Source: an uncultured Clostridia bacterium
GTDB taxonomy: Bacteria > Bacillota > Clostridia > Christensenellales > Pumilibacteraceae
DNA length: 47,885 nt
Assembly (NCBI GenBank): GCA_947589465.1
Contig: CANQAE010000006.1
Span: 1-47,885 of the forward strand
Reading direction: 5' to 3'
Within the stretch, counting starts at the first letter, position 1. The number at the start of each line of letters is the position of its first letter. Under the pieces are notes generated by a model. That model worked only from the letters and a program-made list of their open reading frames with translations. It was not told where the DNA came from and did no database searches. This document shows positions 24,519 through 35,537 of this stretch, piece by piece. The position numbers and the translations under genes were made by a program.

Positions 24519-24621
24519 GTATAGTATAACTTTTGCAAAAAAGCAAATATTTTTCGGCTTTGCGCCGAATAATTATGGCCGTCTAACCTACCTGCCCCAC
24601 TGCCAAATTACAGGGCATACA

Positions 24622-24651
24622 AAAAGGCGATTACATAAGTAAACGCCTTTT
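24622..24651 (-). terminator. terminator after the surface lipoprotein gene
   Basis: AAAAGGCG (24622-24629) pairs with CGCCTTTT (24644-24651), with an inner TTAC/GTAA pair. T-rich tails occur on both strands. It lies between the lipoprotein gene and the aro operon. Confidence 0.75.
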
Positions 24652-24672
24652 GTTTTTCGAGAATTTCGACTA

Positions 24673-24828: not shown

Positions 24829-27018
24829 TTAATTACTTGTGGGGTAATATCCCATAACCGCGCCGAGGTGACCTTCTTGTCCCTTAACCCCAACATAGAT
24901 ATTGAGATAGTCGCCATCAAACAAAGGATTTTCTTTGTCGGTGATCGGTTGATTATTAGCGTCCATGAAGTTGGTCTCATTAAAGTATGCCACACCTCCC
25001 TTTGCACTCTGGAATATTGGAGCACCGCTTGTCGCCAACAGTCCATTTTCAAACATCGCTTTGACAACTAATGAACTTTGCGTGTTTCCTTGACCGAAAT
25101 CGAGCGGAGTATTGTCGCCGATACCGAGATATCCTTTTATCTTTGCGTATTCGGGAGCCGCTTTTCCGGTATTGGCTTTGAATACCGCTATAAAGTTGAA
25201 CTTGCCGTCTTTAAGGAACGTCCTGCCGAACGGCGTAAACGCGGCATTGATACCCTTCACATCACCTGCGAGTCCTTGCGCCTTTACGAGAGCAAACCAG
25301 CCTTCGGTTCCTTCGACAAACGATTCGAGATGGCTGTCTGCCGAAACTTTGACATTGGCGGCATAAAGCGAGCCTCGAGTCGATTGAAAGTCGGCTTCGT
25401 CGCAAATCATAACGGGACCGCCCGCGCCTATCATTTCGGAATGATCGACCGTAAAGAAGTTTTGCTTGTCATACGGTTCGCCGCCCCATACATACATAAA
25501 CGAGTTGTAGTTGTCGTATGCCTTGCAACTTTGGATCGCATGCTTTGTTATCGATCCGTTCCAGGATTCGGGGAAGAAAGTGATAAACCATTTGATGGCT
25601 ATCGAGTTTTTGATAACGAAATCAACGTCTTGAACCTTGTAGAAGATAAGTCCGCCGCTGAGTACGCCGCCGTTCTCGTCGCTGCGATTGGAGTTGCCTA
25701 TAAGATACAAGTTCTTCATGGTCGAAGATGCAATATTGTTTGTATTGTCCTTGTTCTTGCCGACGATCTTGATAAGCGTAGCATGGCTGACTACCGCGCC
25801 CACGTTGGTGACCTTGTCGCTCTCTCGAACTACGAGAGGCATAGCGGACGCGTCGAGGTTGAAATAGTTACCTATAATTTCAAAATTTTCCCCAGGCGCT
25901 ACACATCTTTCGTAGATCTCGCAACCGTCACGAAGCGAATTTACTACCGAAATTCCGGGGTTGTCTTGCGTACCGCGATTATAATCTTCGTCGCTCGGAT
26001 TTACATCTTTCTCGGTATACAAGAAAGACGCGGGAATATCTTCTTTTGTGATGCTTATGTCATTATGCAAAATAACGGCGGCTACCTTTTTATTAGCGTC
26101 ATAGCCGTTGTCGGCTTTGAATTTCTTCCACTGAGCGTCGGCAGTTCCATGTTCTCCATCAGAAGATTCGAACGACAATCTGTCGTACTCGATCATGCAA
26201 AGGTCCTTTGCGGTATAAACATTCCAGCCGTCAATTACTTTGAATTCGAAACTTACGCTTTGCGTCGACGAATCGGACTTACCCTTGATAAACGGACGAA
26301 CCGTAAACTTTATGGTTTTGCCGACTGCGGGGGTAAGGAATTGATATTTTCCGTATTCTTTAACTTCCACATATTGCTCGATATTTGCAGCCTTTTCATA
26401 TGCTTCTTCATTCTTGATTTCCAAGGTAATTTCTGCGTCTATTTTGGAGTAATCGACTGGTACGGAATAGCCTTCTTCCAAAACCGTAACTTCGGGCTTA
26501 AATTCGAACGGGTTATCGTCGCCTACGTAGAATCCGTCGTTACGATCATAGAATTCCGAGCGTTTTGCGTTGGGATTCGAATCGGTAACTTGCTTTTCGG
26601 CGATCGCAGTATTATGCGCCGTAATAAATTGCGGCAACGTAACGCCGACTATCCTGAGATCTTCCGGATTATCCGGATTGTCGGGTCCGGGACCGGCGGG
26701 TTCGGTAACCGTGATTTCATAATTAACGGTGACGTTCTTGTACGTTATTTTGAGGTCGAATTTGCCCACTTGTGCGGTACTGAATTCGCCTACCGTAATA
26801 CCGTCTGCTTTCTTGACCGTTTCCGTCGTTCCGTCGGAGTAATAAACAATAATTTCGAGTTTATCGGTTTTCAGAACTCCGTCCTTTTCGACAACGGTCG
26901 CAATAGTTCCGTCTTTCACTTCTATCTTTTCGATAGTCTTGCCATCTTGGCACGCTACCGCCGTAAAGACCAAAGTCAATACAAGCAAGAACATAGCCAA
27001 AAATTTGAATTTTCTCAT
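24829..27018 (-). CDS. large surface lipoprotein with N-terminal Ig-like domain
   Basis: 729 aa. A hydrophobic signal ends in T-A-V-A-C with the lipid-accepting cysteine at C23, so the mature protein should be anchored on the outer face of the membrane. Residues 25-105 form an all-beta Ig-like domain (I-E-K-I-E-V-K-D-G ... Y-Y-S-D-G-T-T-E-T-V ... G-K-F-D-L-K-I-T-Y), followed by a Pro/Gly/Asn linker (107-120). The long C-terminal part (about 250-729) alternates short hydrophobic strands with Asn- and Gly-rich turns, reminiscent of a parallel beta-helix, but I recognise no enzyme family. ATG follows AAAGGAGG. It is last in a unit with an ABC transporter, which suggests a role in binding or displaying that system's substrate. 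Confidence 0.8.
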   Translation of the reverse strand: MRKFKFLAMFLLVLTLVFTAVACQDGKTIEKIEVKDGTIATVVEKDGVLKTDKLEIIVYYSDGTTETVKKADGITVGEFSTAQVGKFDLKITYKNVTVNYEITVTEPAGPGPDNPDNPEDLRIVGVTLPQFITAHNTAIAEKQVTDSNPNAKRSEFYDRNDGFYVGDDNPFEFKPEVTVLEEGYSVPVDYSKIDAEITLEIKNEEAYEKAANIEQYVEVKEYGKYQFLTPAVGKTIKFTVRPFIKGKSDSSTQSVSFEFKVIDGWNVYTAKDLCMIEYDRLSFESSDGEHGTADAQWKKFKADNGYDANKKVAAVILHNDISITKEDIPASFLYTEKDVNPSDEDYNRGTQDNPGISVVNSLRDGCEIYERCVAPGENFEIIGNYFNLDASAMPLVVRESDKVTNVGAVVSHATLIKIVGKNKDNTNNIASSTMKNLYLIGNSNRSDENGGVLSGGLIFYKVQDVDFVIKNSIAIKWFITFFPESWNGSITKHAIQSCKAYDNYNSFMYVWGGEPYDKQNFFTVDHSEMIGAGGPVMICDEADFQSTRGSLYAANVKVSADSHLESFVEGTEGWFALVKAQGLAGDVKGINAAFTPFGRTFLKDGKFNFIAVFKANTGKAAPEYAKIKGYLGIGDNTPLDFGQGNTQSSLVVKAMFENGLLATSGAPIFQSAKGGVAYFNETNFMDANNQPITDKENPLFDGDYLNIYVGVKGQEGHLGAVMGYYPTSN

Positions 27019-27035
27019 TTTAACCTCCTTTTGAG

Positions 27036-27049
27036 ATCAGTAAACTGAT
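27036..27049. repeat. perfect palindrome before the lipoprotein gene
   Basis: ATCAGT-AA-ACTGAT lies in the 47-nt gap between the Ig-like gene and the lipoprotein gene, a few bases upstream of the ribosome site. It could be an operator half-site pair or a processing hairpin; no function is shown. Confidence 0.4.
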
Positions 27050-27065
27050 ATATCTAAAACACCTA

Positions 27066-27524
27066 TTAGGTGGGATTTTTAAAATTGTTTATTTGGACCG
27101 TAAAATCACGGCTACGGGCTTTTTGTCCGTCTTTACTGAGTATATAAACCTTTGCGTATAAAATATCGAAGTCGTCCGAAAGCACGCTCACCTCGCCGTC
27201 CGACGTGATCTGCAATTTGCCGACTGCGTTATCGGGCATATTGACGATGAACTCCACTTCCTTGTTCGTGGCGTTTTCGGGCATAACTTTGCAATAAAGT
27301 CTGAACTTCAATCCTTTGCTGTATTCCTTTACTACGAAATCCTGGTCGGGATAACGAGGCGGATGAGAGATCTTGTACGAATCCGAATACGGGTCGTCGA
27401 TAAGTTCGATACTCTGAACATACAATATGGGGTCGAAAATAGCAAGTTTTATGCCGAGATATCCGACCAAAACTATCGAGAGAATATATATTACGCAAAT
27501 TGTCAAAACTACTGACTTTCTCAT
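27066..27524 (-). CDS. membrane-anchored Ig-like (Big_2-type) protein
   Basis: 152 aa. One N-terminal membrane segment (about 6-28) has no lipobox, so the rest probably faces outward. The C-terminal part reads L-Y-C-K-V-M-P-E-N-A-T-N-K-E-V-E-F-I-V ... G-E-V-S-V-L, the pattern of bacterial Ig-like group 2 domains (V-x-P-x-N-A-T-N-K-x-V-x-W). Such domains mediate adhesion or act as spacers. The start ATG overlaps the permease stop by one base (TAATG) with GGGAG upstream, and the lipoprotein gene follows 47 nt later, so it belongs to the same transcription unit. The function is unknown. Confidence 0.75.
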   Translation of the reverse strand: MRKSVVLTICVIYILSIVLVGYLGIKLAIFDPILYVQSIELIDDPYSDSYKISHPPRYPDQDFVVKEYSKGLKFRLYCKVMPENATNKEVEFIVNMPDNAVGKLQITSDGEVSVLSDDFDILYAKVYILSKDGQKARSRDFTVQINNFKNPT

Positions 27525-29233
27525 TACATTTTCTCCCTATAATAGAGCCTTACTTTTATGATGAATAGGTAAATGCGCATTGCCGCAAACGCCATCGCTA
27601 TTATCATAAGTTTAAGGCAAGCCGTAATGGGATTGACGCCGCTCTCGTTGAACAATATGAACGAGAAAAACGCAACCGCAAACGAAACCAAAAACGCCAT
27701 TACGGTCATAAAATTGCTGTTCGGATTGTTGATCTCTCCGCCCGTCGTGGCATATTGTTCGTTTTGCGGATTCATTATGTCACGCTCGGCGCTCCACACC
27801 ATATGTCCTATATGGAAGAACAGCACGGTAAGCGCAAGCATTATGAGTCCGCCCACTCCTATCGAGGACGAGTTGAACGCGCCGAATATTCCTATCGACA
27901 CGATTATCGAGATCAGCGAAAACAGCGAGTTGTAAAAAATCTTACACAAAAGCGGGAAAGTCATATCGAGAGGTTTTGTCTTCTTCATATATCCCGCTCT
28001 ACCTTCCATGGAGTACATAGTGGAAACTATGCCGTTCGAGGAAAGCAAAATAAGCAATATGATAAGCAGATTGAACGCGTATATCATATAGTTGCCGAGT
28101 ATGTTCGTACTCATTGCCGCATAAATTTTGTTGAGCAAAAGTATGAGTATGGGTACTGCGATATAAACCGCCAAAAAACTATACGAAATCGACGAACGCA
28201 GATTGAGCAAAAATTCCTTGCGCAAGATCGACTTGTATTTTCTTCTTTTGCGGTTCTCCTTTGCCTTAATGAATTCTTTCTTCTCGAATTCGAAAGGTTG
28301 TGCGGTCATCTTCAAAAACAGCGGCTTTGCAATGAGATAAACTATGCCGAGCACGACCGCTATCGTCACGAGCACATACAAAAACACGAGTGCGTTGGAA
28401 GGTTTGAGCGTAAAGGTAAGGTTTTCGTACGTGCCGATAAGCATTTCGGTTATCGCGTACAGCGGCAATATGTATGTCTTTGCCGACTCGATAAACGATA
28501 TTACCGACGGTCTGTATTTGAGCGGCCAATCGTTGATGAAGTTGATATTTTCGGGTATCAACATAATAAGTTCGACTATAAGCGCGATCACCGCTCCAAC
28601 GACAAGCACGAACAAAGTGACTTTGACGGGCTCATACTTTTTGAGGAATTGATACACGAACATGGCAGGTATGGCAAGAAGCGCTCCTATCGCGACGGGC
28701 AACGCCGACACGAAAATAAGGACAAACGCCATCCAGAAGTACATTCCCACCGAAAGATGCGAAACCATTCCGTACGCTATGAAAAGCGGGAACGTGAATG
28801 TGTACGATCTCATAAGTTCGAACAAGTAGTACACCACGAGTTTGGAGAAGAACACCATATTACCCGTCACGGGCATGGTGACGAGAACTCTGTTGTCGTC
28901 CGCGAAAAACAGAGTTTTCATAAGTCCGACCATGCATGACAATACGCTCAGTATGAATATTATGGAGAACGCGAGCGCCATTACTATTGGCGGCACCCAG
29001 GCGATTATGGCAAAGATGCTGAAAAACGCCGAATAGTAAAAGATATAGTACGCCGCCACGATTATCGCCGCAATGCGCAACACGAAAAAGACCACCTTTG
29101 CGATCAACTGCTTGGTAGAAGTTAAAAACGAGAGATCGAGTTTGTCTTTAAGTTGCATCATAACGAGCGACTTAAAGTGCGAAAATGCGCGACCTCGCTT
29201 TTTTTCTTTCACTTGTGCTTCCGTACTACTCAC
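27524..29233 (-). CDS. large polytopic ABC transporter permease
   Basis: 569 aa with about a dozen hydrophobic segments arranged in two halves, separated by a charged cytoplasmic stretch near residues 315-345 (many Lys, Glu and Arg). After that stretch comes L-R-K-E-F-L-L-N-L-R-S. The pattern resembles large ABC-2-like permeases of Firmicutes that work with a separate ATPase. The start is GTG 29233, overlapping the ATPase gene by 8 nt, so coupling to the ATPase is likely. It ends within 1 nt of the Ig-like gene. I cannot assign a substrate. Confidence is high for membrane protein and moderate for ABC permease, which rests mainly on context. Confidence 0.75.
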   Translation of the reverse strand: MSSTEAQVKEKKRGRAFSHFKSLVMMQLKDKLDLSFLTSTKQLIAKVVFFVLRIAAIIVAAYYIFYYSAFFSIFAIIAWVPPIVMALAFSIIFILSVLSCMVGLMKTLFFADDNRVLVTMPVTGNMVFFSKLVVYYLFELMRSYTFTFPLFIAYGMVSHLSVGMYFWMAFVLIFVSALPVAIGALLAIPAMFVYQFLKKYEPVKVTLFVLVVGAVIALIVELIMLIPENINFINDWPLKYRPSVISFIESAKTYILPLYAITEMLIGTYENLTFTLKPSNALVFLYVLVTIAVVLGIVYLIAKPLFLKMTAQPFEFEKKEFIKAKENRKRRKYKSILRKEFLLNLRSSISYSFLAVYIAVPILILLLNKIYAAMSTNILGNYMIYAFNLLIILLILLSSNGIVSTMYSMEGRAGYMKKTKPLDMTFPLLCKIFYNSLFSLISIIVSIGIFGAFNSSSIGVGGLIMLALTVLFFHIGHMVWSAERDIMNPQNEQYATTGGEINNPNSNFMTVMAFLVSFAVAFFSFILFNESGVNPITACLKLMIIAMAFAAMRIYLFIIKVRLYYREKM

Positions 29234-31682
29234 TCTGTTCCGCCTTTTTTGTCTTTTTGTGCTTTTTTCCGTCGGGCTTGCCCTTTTTTCCGTCGTCCTC
29301 GTCGGAAATTACCTGCCTTTCAACGTCCGTTTCCTCTATCGTCTTTAAGTAAAAATCTTCGAGCGTGTTATCGGGACCGAATTCCGAAACGTTGCGCGTG
29401 CAGATTATTTTGCCTTTTTTGATTATGGTTATGCGATCGCATATACGCTCCACTACGTCTATGATGTGGCTCGAAAAGAACACTATGTTCCCCTCTTTGG
29501 CGTGTTGCTTCATACATTCCTTGACTTGATAAATGCTGTTGGGATCAAGTCCGGTGAGAGGCTCGTCGAGTATCCAAAGACGCGGATTATGAACAAGCGC
29601 CGCCATTATCGTGATCTTTTGCTTCATTCCGTGCGAGTACGTGCGCATACTGTTGTCTATCGAGCCTTCGAGTTCGAACAACTTGACGTATCTGTCTATG
29701 CGCTCGTCGCGTTCTTCCTTGCCGACGTCGTAAATGTCCGCTATATAGTTAATGTATTCTCTGCCCGTCAGTCGCTCGTAAAGCGCGTAATGGTCGGGTA
29801 CGTACCCTATCTGCCTTTTGGCTTCGACCGATTGCTTCTCGACGTCGTAACCGCATACCTTGATCGTGCCTTCGGTTATCGGTTGTATGCCGACGATGCT
29901 TTTTATTATCGTCGATTTGCCCGCGCCGTTCGGTCCCAAAAAGCCGAATATTTCGCCTGCATGAACTTCGAGATCGGCGTTCTTGACCGCATAAACGTTA
30001 CTCGATCCGTAACGTTTGCCAAATCCCTGCAATATGAGTTTGTCAGTCTGATCGTTATACATAGGTTCGGTTTTACTCCTCCCGTTTAATGTGCTGAGCA
30101 TAGCGTACTTGTCCTGTCTGAATTTTCGGTTGCGCGCATGCATATCGTAATGGAAGTCGGCAACCAAGAAAAATTGTTCGTACACGAACCACATTGCAAA
30201 CGCTATGCCGACGTACACCACGAAAAACAATACCTGATATACCGGATAGTATACGAAATGCAATCCCCCGATGTCGAATTCCAGAACAAAGTTCGTGCGA
30301 AGCGCTTCCGCCCATGAGCCGAGTTTGTCCACTATAAAGTCGCTGTTGAGAAAGAAATAGTCAACGTCGCCGTAATTGCTGAACCAGCCGTTTATCACAA
30401 GCACGAGCAAGAAGTACACGGCAAAGCCCGCCATCGAATACCAGAATTGTCTGAACTTCGGACGCGCGAACATTTTGAGTGCGACAAGCAGCAACGGCAT
30501 AAAGAATGCGCAAAAGTGATTTATCCAAAACAGCACGAGCGCCGTGCTGAACATATTCGTCCCGTCTGCGTAATTGGGCATTGCCATTGCCAAAAACGCG
30601 CCCATGACGTTGATGAAATATGTAAAGTAAAAGAGTTTGTCCAACTTAAATATTATGCAGATCGGGATTATATACATCGCCGTGTTGCATAAGTGCAACG
30701 GCCAATGATACGGCGTCAATATGTCGGCGAAAGTGTAATTGTACGAATACGAAATCATTGTCGCAAGCGCAAGAAACAATATCGAGTAATGTATAACTTC
30801 CTTCGACTTATTTCGCAATGCAAAGTAGACCGCGATCGGTATAAGCACCGACGCATAAAGAAACGCGCGATGGTCGGGTCCCAAATCTTTGACCGTATAA
30901 AGCGTGTTCGCCCGCCCGAAAAGCATTTGAAGCAGATACGGAGGAAACGCCGCGATGAGCATCGGCAAAACCGACAAAAGCAAATTGAGCGCTTCTTTCT
31001 TCGAAATGCGCAAATTGCCGTCGCGGATCCAGGCGTTGCCGCATATAGCAAGTCCGCAACCTATTTCGGCAGCCATCGCCGCCGCCGACAAATTAAGTTC
31101 GGCTCCAAGCGAAAAGTCGCAAAACAGCGTAAGCATGGGAGTCAAAAATCCAAGACAGATTACGAATACGGGCGTGGCGAAAAATTTCACCGCGTTGTTG
31201 GCGGTCTTGAAATCGTAAAACGGATACAGTATGACTGTCAAGATCGCCGCCGCTTCGAGCCATAACATCAAGGTAGACAATACGCCGAGTCCCGACGAAA
31301 CGGGAGCGGCAATAAGTCCGTACTGTCTGTACGGGTCTATTATGTCAAGATCGACGAGAGTTGCGTTCCTCAGGTCGCGGCTCGCAGAAAAATAACGAAG
31401 CACAAACATAAGCGCCGCAAACAAGGACGGCAATATATATTTGTCCTCTACTGGCTTAACGAATCGTCTTTTCTTTTTGCCCTTTTTCTTTTCGTCATTT
31501 CCCTCGTCTGCTTTTTTTGCGGCTTTGCTCGCTTCGGCGTTTATGGTATGTATATCGGATTGCGAGGGCGCAACCATATCGGCGTCACATTCGTGACGCT
31601 TTTTGCCGCACGCAAATACTTTGCTTATCGCGGCTATAAATATGGTGACGGCAAGTCCCGCCGATACAAATAAATAGTACAT
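29226..31682 (-). CDS. YwaF/TMEM164-like membrane domain fused to ABC ATPase
   Basis: 818 aa. Residues 1-20 form a membrane segment; 25-80 is a highly charged, Lys-rich stretch; 80-510 contains about a dozen membrane segments. Within that part, H-W-P-L-H-L-C (328-332), a Phe/Tyr-rich helix and F-W-I-N-H-F (388-389) match the pattern of the YwaF family, the bacterial relatives of TMEM164. Residues 545-785 are an ABC ATPase: Walker A G-P-N-G-A-G-K-S-T (583-591), signature Y-S-H-G-M-K-Q-K (682 on), Walker B L-W-I-L-D-E-P (702-708) and H739. The tail (795-818) is Lys-rich. The frame is continuous, so the fusion is real unless two sequencing errors cancelled. First gene of a four-gene unit with a consensus promoter. 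The ribosome site GGGGGAGG is only 2 nt from the ATG. Confidence 0.88.
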   Translation of the reverse strand: MYYLFVSAGLAVTIFIAAISKVFACGKKRHECDADMVAPSQSDIHTINAEASKAAKKADEGNDEKKKGKKKRRFVKPVEDKYILPSLFAALMFVLRYFSASRDLRNATLVDLDIIDPYRQYGLIAAPVSSGLGVLSTLMLWLEAAAILTVILYPFYDFKTANNAVKFFATPVFVICLGFLTPMLTLFCDFSLGAELNLSAAAMAAEIGCGLAICGNAWIRDGNLRISKKEALNLLLSVLPMLIAAFPPYLLQMLFGRANTLYTVKDLGPDHRAFLYASVLIPIAVYFALRNKSKEVIHYSILFLALATMISYSYNYTFADILTPYHWPLHLCNTAMYIIPICIIFKLDKLFYFTYFINVMGAFLAMAMPNYADGTNMFSTALVLFWINHFCAFFMPLLLVALKMFARPKFRQFWYSMAGFAVYFLLVLVINGWFSNYGDVDYFFLNSDFIVDKLGSWAEALRTNFVLEFDIGGLHFVYYPVYQVLFFVVYVGIAFAMWFVYEQFFLVADFHYDMHARNRKFRQDKYAMLSTLNGRSKTEPMYNDQTDKLILQGFGKRYGSSNVYAVKNADLEVHAGEIFGFLGPNGAGKSTIIKSIVGIQPITEGTIKVCGYDVEKQSVEAKRQIGYVPDHYALYERLTGREYINYIADIYDVGKEERDERIDRYVKLFELEGSIDNSMRTYSHGMKQKITIMAALVHNPRLWILDEPLTGLDPNSIYQVKECMKQHAKEGNIVFFSSHIIDVVERICDRITIIKKGKIICTRNVSEFGPDNTLEDFYLKTIEETDVERQVISDEDDGKKGKPDGKKHKKTKKAEQSE

Positions 31683-31719: not shown

Positions 31720-31748
31720 ATTATACCATAAGGCTAATATCAAGTCAA
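31720..31748 (-). promoter_or_regulatory. promoter of the ABC/surface protein unit
   Basis: TTGACT (31748-31743), 17 nt, perfect TATAAT (31725-31720), about 38 nt upstream of the fused ATPase gene. Confidence 0.75.
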
Positions 31749-32997: not shown

Positions 32998-34872
32998 CTA
33001 TCTTCTTCCGCCGCCGCCTCCGCCGAAGCCGCCGCCGCCGAAACCGCCGCCAAAGCCGCCGAAACCGCCGCCTCCGCTAAACGACGAACGGGACGGACGG
33101 GACGCCATTGCCGAAGCATAACTTACGAACGAATTCCTGAAAATCGCGTTGAATACCATAAAGTCGAATATGTCGGGACCATGGTAGTAGGCAGGCGGCG
33201 GGACAGATTCGAGTTCTTCGAACTTTTCCTGCCAGATCTCGCTTACGCCGAGCACGTTCGCGTACGGTAATATGTTGTAGTAATACTGAGGATCGTCTTC
33301 GAGCATCTTTTCGAGTTTGTCCTTTTCGGCAAGGCGAAGAAACTCCTTGAAGCCCACGATTTGCCCCATAACCGACGCGTAATATTCTGATTTGCGATTC
33401 ATCATGCCGCATACGAAGCCTATGACCGCAAGTCCGCAGTAAATCACCGCCCTCGCATACACGGGGAATATCCCGCCGAGGAAAAACAGCGAAGCCACCA
33501 CTCCGCCGAACAGCACGGCGACCGTCATGCCGAGGCAAAACAAGGTTATGCGCTTCGTCGATAACTTGTGCTTTACGTTGAATATATATCGCCCGCAACC
33601 GAATCCTATTGCCGTGAATATTGCCGCGAAACCTATCGGGAATATTAGCGAACTAATCAGAGAAATATTGACCTGTATCGTGAAAACGCAAATTGCGATC
33701 GCGACAAGTATTGCGCCGACCGCCGCTATCACGGGCGAAAATTTCGATTTTCCGTCGAACAACTTGCCCGCATAATCGCATTTTATTTGACTTGTAGCAA
33801 GCGCTATTTCGGCATAGTACGAATCGGAAAGTTGGGCGCTCGAAATCTTGTCGCCTTTCTTGAATAGTCCGTTGAAGATTATCTTTCTGTGCAAAGGCTC
33901 GCCATCACCTATTTCGCCCTTTTTGATGAGCGTGAAGTCGTTATCTTCGACGCTTTCTATCTCAATAAGCCCCTTTGACGCAAAGTAAAATATCATTGCC
34001 GTAATATCTTTCGGCTCGCAATTGTTGTCAATAAGATATCCCATTTGCGCAGGATCGAGTTCCTTGCCGCTATCGAGCGGCGGGGTCGCATTGACCACGG
34101 GGACGATCATTCTGTCCTTCAATGCGAACAATTTCAAGCATACGGCGGAGGTGACGAGTGCGAGTATCAAAAGGATCGAAACAAGTCCCGCCGCCCCGAA
34201 ATTAACGTTGAATTTGCGACCCATCTCCGCATCAACAGTAACTCCGTTGAACGGATCGAGATCAAGCCCCGTCATGGTGATCGTCTTGCGATCTTCGTCA
34301 AGACTAAACGCGGACGTGGTTACTGACGAACCGTAATCGCCCATATAGACTTTAAGGTCTTTTATTTCGAAAGGAAAACTCATTTTTACCGAAACGTTTT
34401 CCTGTTTCGTTGTCCAGCCGTACGGAACTATGTTCATATAGTAATTGGTATTTTGGACGGTGCGCACAGGCGGTACTATGTCGTACGAAATGACATAATC
34501 TATTTCCTTGCCGATGGGATAGTAAGTATAGTCGTCGCCCGTGTAAACAGCCAAAAAGCCGTCTTCGGACGACATATAGTACGTATCGCCCGTTACGGTA
34601 ATGTTACGATATTGTTCGCCGCTGCCTGTCGGCAACCACCTTATTATGCCCCTGCTTCGAACGTTGAACCTTACCGTGAGCGATTCCGTAACCGAAGCGA
34701 CGTGATCTTCCGCTACTGCAATATCGTAATTTGCTTTCGTTATGGTATATCCGTTGTCAACGCGAAATTCATCGTATGCGTTATCCGCCGGTAACGGCAC
34801 CAACAAAAGTACGATGAATACGCCCAAAAAGAGCAAGGTGACGGCAACTATCAGCCATCTGAATTTTTTCAT
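32998..34872 (-). CDS. DUF2207 membrane protein with Gly-rich C-terminus
   Basis: 624 aa. An N-terminal membrane segment (about 5-27) is followed by an all-beta extracytoplasmic domain of the DUF2207 type (N-Y-D-I-A-V ... V-T-E-S-L-T-V-R-F ... G-I-I-R-W-L-P). Next come a membrane segment near 235, a cytoplasmic region with the L-I-D-N-N-C-E-P-K-D-I-T-A winged-helix-like stretch, two pairs of membrane segments (about 375-480), and a tail made almost only of Gly and Phe (last 25 residues). Proteins of this build commonly occur next to LemA, as here, where the LemA stop and this start are adjacent (TAAATG). The function is unknown; a membrane-stress or envelope role is often suggested for the pair. 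Confidence 0.88.
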   Translation of the reverse strand: MKKFRWLIVAVTLLFLGVFIVLLLVPLPADNAYDEFRVDNGYTITKANYDIAVAEDHVASVTESLTVRFNVRSRGIIRWLPTGSGEQYRNITVTGDTYYMSSEDGFLAVYTGDDYTYYPIGKEIDYVISYDIVPPVRTVQNTNYYMNIVPYGWTTKQENVSVKMSFPFEIKDLKVYMGDYGSSVTTSAFSLDEDRKTITMTGLDLDPFNGVTVDAEMGRKFNVNFGAAGLVSILLILALVTSAVCLKLFALKDRMIVPVVNATPPLDSGKELDPAQMGYLIDNNCEPKDITAMIFYFASKGLIEIESVEDNDFTLIKKGEIGDGEPLHRKIIFNGLFKKGDKISSAQLSDSYYAEIALATSQIKCDYAGKLFDGKSKFSPVIAAVGAILVAIAICVFTIQVNISLISSLIFPIGFAAIFTAIGFGCGRYIFNVKHKLSTKRITLFCLGMTVAVLFGGVVASLFFLGGIFPVYARAVIYCGLAVIGFVCGMMNRKSEYYASVMGQIVGFKEFLRLAEKDKLEKMLEDDPQYYYNILPYANVLGVSEIWQEKFEELESVPPPAYYHGPDIFDFMVFNAIFRNSFVSYASAMASRPSRSSFSGGGGFGGFGGGFGGGGFGGGGGGRR

Positions 34873-35457
34873 TTAGAATTTTACCTGTACGTTCTGTCTT
34901 TCGCTTTCTTCAACCTCGAAAAACGGCTTTTTGGTAAGTTTCATAGCATTTGCTATAAGGTTGGACGGGAAAAACATTATCTTGTTATTGAATTGCTTGA
35001 CAGTGGCGTTGTAATATTTGCGATGCTGTGCGATATCGTTTTCAATAGACGTAAGTTGACTTTGCAACATAGCGAATTGTTGATTCGCTTTGAGATCGGG
35101 ATATGCTTCCTGCAAAGCAAAAAGAGATTTGAGAGTCCCGCTGAGCATATTTTCCGCTGCGATCTTGTCCTCGGCGGAAGTCGCGTTCATTGCCCTGTTT
35201 CGCGCTTCGACCACCTTGGTGAGCGTTTCGGACTCGTGCGAAGCATAACCTTTGACCGTTTCAACGAGATTGGGAATAAGGTCCCACCTCTTTTTGAGAT
35301 AAACGTCAACCGTCGAAAACGCTTCTTCGACGTTGTTACGTAAACCGATGAGCGAATTGCGCGTGGAGATAAGCCAAATGACTATTCCCACGACCACAAC
35401 GACCGCGATTATGACTATCAACCAAATAGCCCAACTTTCGATCCCCAACAAAAACAT
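34873..35457 (-). CDS. LemA family protein
   Basis: 194 aa from ATG 35457, supported by GGAGG 8 nt upstream. A single N-terminal membrane helix (about 8-30) is followed by the LemA coiled-coil domain: N-S-L-I-G-L-R-N-N-V-E-E-A-F-S-T-V-D-V-Y-L-K-K-R-W-D-L-I-P-N-L-V, Y-A-S-H-E, A-R-N-R-A, Y-P-D-L-K-A-N and the C-terminal Y-N-x-x-V-x-x-F-N block, here followed by F-F-P-S-N-L-I-A. These are the family's defining segments. LemA proteins are widespread with no settled function. First gene of the operon with the DUF2207 protein, the S51 peptidase and dtd. Confidence 0.93.
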   Translation of the reverse strand: MFLLGIESWAIWLIVIIAVVVVVGIVIWLISTRNSLIGLRNNVEEAFSTVDVYLKKRWDLIPNLVETVKGYASHESETLTKVVEARNRAMNATSAEDKIAAENMLSGTLKSLFALQEAYPDLKANQQFAMLQSQLTSIENDIAQHRKYYNATVKQFNNKIMFFPSNLIANAMKLTKKPFFEVEESERQNVQVKF

Positions 35458-35507
35458 ATCGAATCCTCCGTAAAAACTTATTTTGCCCGCTTTCGACAGG
35501 CAAAAAG

Positions 35508-35537
35508 AATATAACATAACTCCTTAATTTTAGTCAA
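35508..35537 (-). promoter_or_regulatory. promoter of the lemA operon
   Basis: TTGACT (35537-35532), 18 nt, TATATT (35513-35508), about 50 nt before the lemA start. A small hairpin (GCCTG with CGGGC) follows in the leader. Confidence 0.6.

Follow-up and report, generated by a model that had tools for sequence, protein, structure and literature searches.

The four genes analysed here form one real, conserved unit, in which a membrane domain with a TMEM164-type acyltransferase core is fused to an ABC ATPase and is encoded together with a permease, a membrane-anchored Ig-like protein and a large surface lipoprotein. They lie within a stretch of 47,885 nt (the window) from an uncultured Clostridia bacterium. 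The four-component system is apparently undescribed; it is made of known families, and what is new is their combination and the domain fusion. The earlier note on this DNA knew of no described system of this composition, and our search of the open literature (subscription papers being outside its scope) likewise found none; for the bacterial members of the TMEM164 family (YwaF/TIGR02206 branch) it also returned nothing relevant, and nothing on Christensenellales lipoproteins with ABC transporters. The standalone bacterial members of the family appear to be uncharacterised.

The four open reading frames share one strand and stand where the earlier note had placed them (Table 1). Genes 1 and 2 overlap by 8 nt and genes 2 and 3 by 1 nt (TAATG), while 47 nt separate gene 3 from gene 4, and the relatives have the same spacing pattern (medians of -4, +3 and about +70 nt for genes 1/2, 2/3 and 3/4 respectively). 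The intrinsic terminator has no equally good counterpart among shuffled sequences and its fold is followed by a U run. Reading frames, overlaps and terminator thus confirm the proposal of a single unit, and a single transcript across all four genes is predicted as likely. The consensus promoter that formed part of that proposal is present, with 11 of 12 matches and a rank as one of the two best among 35 sites in 16 kb, but 21.5 promoter-type sites are expected by chance, so that the match alone is weak evidence. The hairpin between genes 3 and 4 may be an attenuator or a chance structure. Upstream of the unit, a DUF2207 membrane protein adjoins LemA (window 32998-35517).

Table 1. Features of the four-gene unit in window coordinates
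Feature	Position	Strand	Remark
Gene 1, 818 aa, membrane domain with TMEM164-type acyltransferase core + ABC ATPase	29226..31682	-	
TMEM164 domain, aa 271-486	30225..30872	-	PF14808
Predicted catalytic Cys332	30687-30689	-	Predicted extracytoplasmic
Predicted catalytic His389	30516-30518	-	Predicted extracytoplasmic
Conserved His271 and His330 of TMEM164 domain		-	Predicted extracytoplasmic
ABC ATPase domain, aa 566-709	29556..29987	-	Intact motifs
Gene 2, 569 aa ABC permease, PF16949-like	27524..29233	-	Pfam profile
Gene 3, 152 aa, N-terminal TM anchor (aa 8-27) + extracytoplasmic Ig-like domain	27066..27524	-	
Gene 4, 729 aa surface lipoprotein	24829..27018	-	Lipobox AVAC, Cys23 at 26950-26952
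Big_3 Ig-like domain of gene 4, aa 49-104	26707..26874	-	Profile
Right-handed beta-helix of gene 4, about aa 261-680	24979..26238	-	Model; no conserved catalytic residues
Extended -10 sigma-A-type promoter, TTGACT-17-TATAAT, TG before -10	31720..31748	-	Consensus match only
Intrinsic terminator	24619..24653	-	Fold -17.3 kcal/mol, z -4.6
Weak hairpin, end of gene 3	27060..27072	-	z -1.4

Gene 1 encodes, in order, extra TM helices, the TMEM164 domain and the ABC ATPase. The fused ATPase recognized in the earlier note is therefore real, but its membrane half had been missed as a TMEM164-type acyltransferase domain. The match to PF14808 has an E-value of 8.6e-21 (74.9 bits against a curated cut-off of 25; 81.1 bits in a second search), and that to TIGR02206 ('TMEM164-related integral membrane acyltransferase') one of 1.6e-16; at 60.4 bits the latter lies under the curated cut-off of 75, and gene 1 is thus a divergent branch that is not filed under TIGR02206 itself. 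With the TMEM164/YwaF family it shares the membrane core, the conserved Cys of a PLHLC motif and the downstream His, whereas the extra preceding helices, the ATPase fusion and the setting in an operon set it apart. His330, Cys332 and His389 are found in 62/62 fused relatives and His271 in 61/62, and nearly all of these site residues are also kept in standalone TMEM164 proteins (C332 in 7/7, H389 in 6/7). From knowledge of the family we take Cys332 and His389 to be a catalytic pair, presumably the counterparts of Cys123 and His181 of human TMEM164. In family-averaged hydropathy profiles the positive charge of the loops alternates, and taking the ATPase to be cytoplasmic puts the Cys and His residues at the outer helix ends; from this placement, the TMEM164 domain appears to act on the outer face of the membrane, as LhaT does. 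TMEM164 has been reported to be a cysteine-dependent acyltransferase (PMC13276253).

The ATPase domain of gene 1 is of the generic ABC-2 type and its motifs are intact (Walker A GPNGAGKST, signature YSHGMKQK, Walker B WILDEP), with a switch His739 just downstream of the domain; Walker A, the signature, the Walker B Glu and the switch His are invariant in the alignment. A profile search with the TMEM164 region found no match among PDB sequences, and a fold search with its model gave nothing significant (best E 0.14, to unrelated transporters), which does not imply a novel fold. The gene 2 permease scores 23.1 bits against PF16949, just below the cut-off of 25.7, and this profile is matched by 10 of 13 aligned proteins (best 2e-14). 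It is the only profile that gene 2 matches up to an E-value of 1, a range that contains no MacB/FtsX-type (Type VII) permease profile, and a search of the permease profile against PDB sequences gave no match.

The two distal genes had been described as encoding extracytoplasmic proteins with Ig-like domains and no enzyme signature, and the Ig-like content is borne out, more weakly so in gene 3. There the profile signal is weak (E 0.0016-0.024 to six chains), and two relatives match Big_2. Gene 4 by itself falls just under the Big_3 cut-off, but of the 9 proteins aligned, 6 do reach a match (best 4e-40), and the profile of its Ig domain matches 2l7y with an E-value of 1.6e-8. The C-terminal part of gene 4 is beta-rich, and its AlphaFold2 model (mean pLDDT 73.5) aligns to proteins with a right-handed beta-helix, reaching Z-scores of up to 15.6 across about residues 261-680. 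Among 36 proteins, the columns kept at a level of at least 85% hold Gly, Asn, Pro, Ala, Leu, aromatic residues, the Cys of the lipobox and Lys3 of the leader. Asp, Glu and His are missing from these columns, and Lys3 is the only basic residue in them. This pattern favours binding over catalysis, and gene 4 is unlikely to be an enzyme despite its pectate-lyase-like fold. At one locus (L323, G106:C1, 7423-9600) a 726-aa lipoprotein is encoded behind a sister system; its Listeria-Bacteroides repeats (PF09479) resemble those in distant gene 4 proteins.

The neighbourhood search suggested in the earlier note was carried out on 65 fused loci besides the window, from which the duplicates L129 and L131 had been removed and some of which come from closely related genomes. 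Genes 2, 3 and 4 follow in the same order in 48 of the 65, with a lipobox in all 48; a further locus (L115) is also complete, its gene 3 having been identified by eye, one (L141) is rearranged with the lipoprotein gene first, and one (L121) is rearranged with genes 3 and 4 joined in a single protein. The remaining 14 reach a contig end no more than 3.2 kb downstream, before a full gene 4. No fused locus with room downstream has genes 1-3 without gene 4 sequence, and the fused ATPase is thus not regularly found apart from the other three genes, which bears out the note's suggestion of dedicated surface partners. The unit is conserved, but it is not general across Clostridia. Among the 347 genomes searched within the order, 59 carry the TMEM164 profile and 44 of these have it in long fused frames, and in a 299-genome sample of the phylum the only fused case is the window's own genome. 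Records of the fusion come from uncultured Christensenella and Clostridia MAGs, mostly of animal gut, and from a few Bacilli-type MAGs (Acholeplasmataceae, Acholeplasma, Izimaplasma, 'Bacillales'). When the distance matrices of the four proteins are compared in pairs, r lies at 0.67-0.90 (0.90 for genes 1 and 2, 0.80 for genes 1 and 4; permuted maximum 0.17), as would be expected for co-inheritance, and this shows shared history rather than contact. At L134 two TMEM164 units stand in tandem, strongly diverged from each other.

Within its genus the unit sits between dtd and aroC. The whole unit occupies this site in two genomes besides the window (G026 and G022), and in a third (G021) it is split over contigs; in two others (G023, G027) the interval from the flanking genes to aroC lacks the unit, and in G024 the gap (L265, G024:C37, 3529-5587) is occupied instead by two genes, one of Band_7 (flotillin-type) and another for a membrane protein. 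In G025 gene 4 is present alone, at full length, at the same site. The unit thus comes and goes at this site as a block, and the one exception shows that gene 4 can be retained without the transporter. The recurrent neighbours of the unit reflect mainly local synteny within related genomes and give no pathway clue, and no lipid-synthesis gene recurs among them.

The ATPase-permease pair alone is common in Clostridia (permease profile in 59 of 224 good genomes), and the inspected pair-only loci have no partners of the kind of genes 3 and 4. At 25 sister loci in the same order a plain ATPase and permease, with no TMEM164 fusion, are followed by one large TM-anchored protein, and hhalign shows homology of its N-terminus to gene 3 (E 1.5e-9) and of its middle to gene 4 (E 7.7e-13); as the sister clade joins the two in one protein, genes 3 and 4 probably work together. 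A tree of 98 permease sequences, built by a quick method and rooted at the midpoint, separates the pair-only, joined-partner and TMEM164 forms. One group holds 49 TMEM164 units together with L121, L127 and L141 (SH-aLRT 99); L127, with TMEM164 as a separate gene, and L121, with the fusion and an unsplit partner, lie near its base, the placement of L121 being unsure because of its long branch. This points to TMEM164 having been added about once, and the fused loci are thus not independent. The surface protein would have been split into Ig anchor and lipoprotein at about the same time, and as judged from sequence relationships the four-gene form is a derived branch of a broader ABC, permease and Ig/beta-helix family. 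A strict rule linking TMEM164 to a lipoprotein partner was considered and rejected, as L121 breaks it and the association goes back to about one origin.

We tentatively favour, as a reading that is possible rather than probable, ABC-driven presentation of a lipid to an outer-face TMEM164 acyltransferase, with the beta-helix lipoprotein as its surface partner. The products of genes 1-4 would form one envelope complex, in which the ABC domain of gene 1 would hydrolyse ATP and drive the gene 2 permease, and the permease would present or flip a membrane lipid to the outer leaflet. There the TMEM164-type domain would transfer an acyl chain by means of its outward Cys332/His389 site; the gene 3 Ig protein would couple the transporter to the gene 4 lipoprotein, and the latter, as a partner rather than a substrate, may bind or receive the modified lipid or a lipid-linked envelope component. 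YbbAP-TesA of Escherichia coli offers a precedent, as there an ABC complex is proposed to hand membrane lipids to an enzyme outside the inner membrane (PMC12646458), although that system pairs a Type VII permease with a soluble hydrolase whereas the present unit has a PF16949-like permease and a fused membrane acyltransferase. Several results tell against this reading: the TIGR02206 and PF16949 scores below cut-off, the lack of a significant PDB match for the TMEM164 model, the lack of a recurring lipid-synthesis gene next to the unit, and the survival of gene 4 without genes 1-3 in G025. Of the roles suggested earlier (envelope assembly, possible export of a lipid or polymer), the envelope or lipid role is sharpened by the TMEM164 domain with its Cys and His, predicted to face outward. 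With still greater reserve we suggest an ATP-driven acyltransferase machine that modifies either an outer-leaflet lipid or the dedicated beta-helix lipoprotein, in an undescribed envelope-modification pathway of Christensenellales-type Clostridia and some Bacilli. Covalent fusion and conserved gene order tie a branch of the TMEM164 family here to an ABC transporter, an Ig protein and a lipoprotein. The branch thereby gains a defined partner set and a directional hypothesis, outer-leaflet acyl transfer driven by ATP, and the role of the TMEM164 family in bacteria becomes testable. If true, this hypothesis would describe a new kind of ABC machine, one that energises a membrane acyltransferase, and would bear on how acyl donors reach the outer face.

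That last point was left open in work on LhaT (YpjA of Bacillus subtilis), an extracytoplasmic lipoprotein N-acetyltransferase of the ATGY superfamily, which it shares with TMEM164 (PMC12345273), and it provides the second-ranked, though unlikely, reading: at the outer face the TMEM164 domain would N-acylate the lipoprotein encoded by gene 4, possibly along with other lipoproteins, and the ABC pair would flip the acyl-donor lipid. Besides the common superfamily and outward-acting acyl transfer, it would account for the constant company of a lipoprotein in the complete fused loci, against a TM-anchored partner in the sister loci that lack the fusion, and for gene 4 sequence wherever there is room for it. 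The association amounts, however, to about one evolutionary event, and L121 keeps the fusion with its Cys and His beside a joined TM-anchored partner and no lipoprotein; it is this retention of the active site that puts N-acylation second. The persistence of gene 4 without genes 1-3 in G025 also speaks against it, and a general lipoprotein modifier would need no lipoprotein of its own. LhaT itself belongs to another Pfam family, is unfused and has no known ABC partner, and DUF1405 is not among the Pfam matches of gene 1 up to an E-value of 1.

A mechanical role modelled on NosDFY is less probable again. NosD has a beta-helix fold, and the ATPase, permease and beta-helix partner of the unit are of the same part types as NosF, NosY and NosD. 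In such a scheme, for which NosDFY is a precedent as an ATPase and permease with an extracytoplasmic partner (PMC7660919), the transporter would work the beta-helix protein mechanically so as to assemble or load a surface component, and TMEM164 would be a later, secondary addition. It agrees with the sister clade, which has the same machine without TMEM164, and the ATPase matches NosF in the PDB, as it does many other proteins. But the TMEM164 active-site residues are kept throughout, which makes a purely structural domain unlikely; moreover, NosDFY serves nitrous oxide reductase and has neither TMEM164 nor an Ig coupling protein, gene 4 has no match to the NosD profile (only Big_3 was found), and among the neighbours seen, which were judged without nos models, there are no reductase or copper genes. 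An ordinary efflux or immunity exporter of the LanFEG kind, in which the lipoprotein would serve immunity and the membrane domain would have no particular function, would suit the generic ATPase domain and the common two-gene pairs among the permease relatives, but is very improbable given the conservation of a large beta-helix lipoprotein and an Ig protein with the fusion, the lack of recurring peptide, lantibiotic or regulator genes nearby, and PADLOC matches that fall only within the generic ATPase domain. With its PADLOC matches so confined, a defence role is likewise unsupported.

Some loci show further arrangements of these modules. The window's own genome carries a second system (L220, G000:C8:8000-13614) with a related ATPase and permease and a 989-aa TM-anchored Ig protein (Big_2); in such 'type I' units of the same order the partner corresponds to genes 3 and 4 joined, but it is not a lipoprotein, and TMEM164 is absent. 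At L300, L303, L309, L313, L314 and L318 a single ATPase-permease pair is followed by two joined Ig/beta-helix partner genes in tandem. A standalone TMEM164 gene is present in the window's own genome (G000:C25:19895-20539), and another (L320, G214:C24, 289-1176) lies directly downstream of a sister system with a joined partner, a possible second association of TMEM164 with the sister module.
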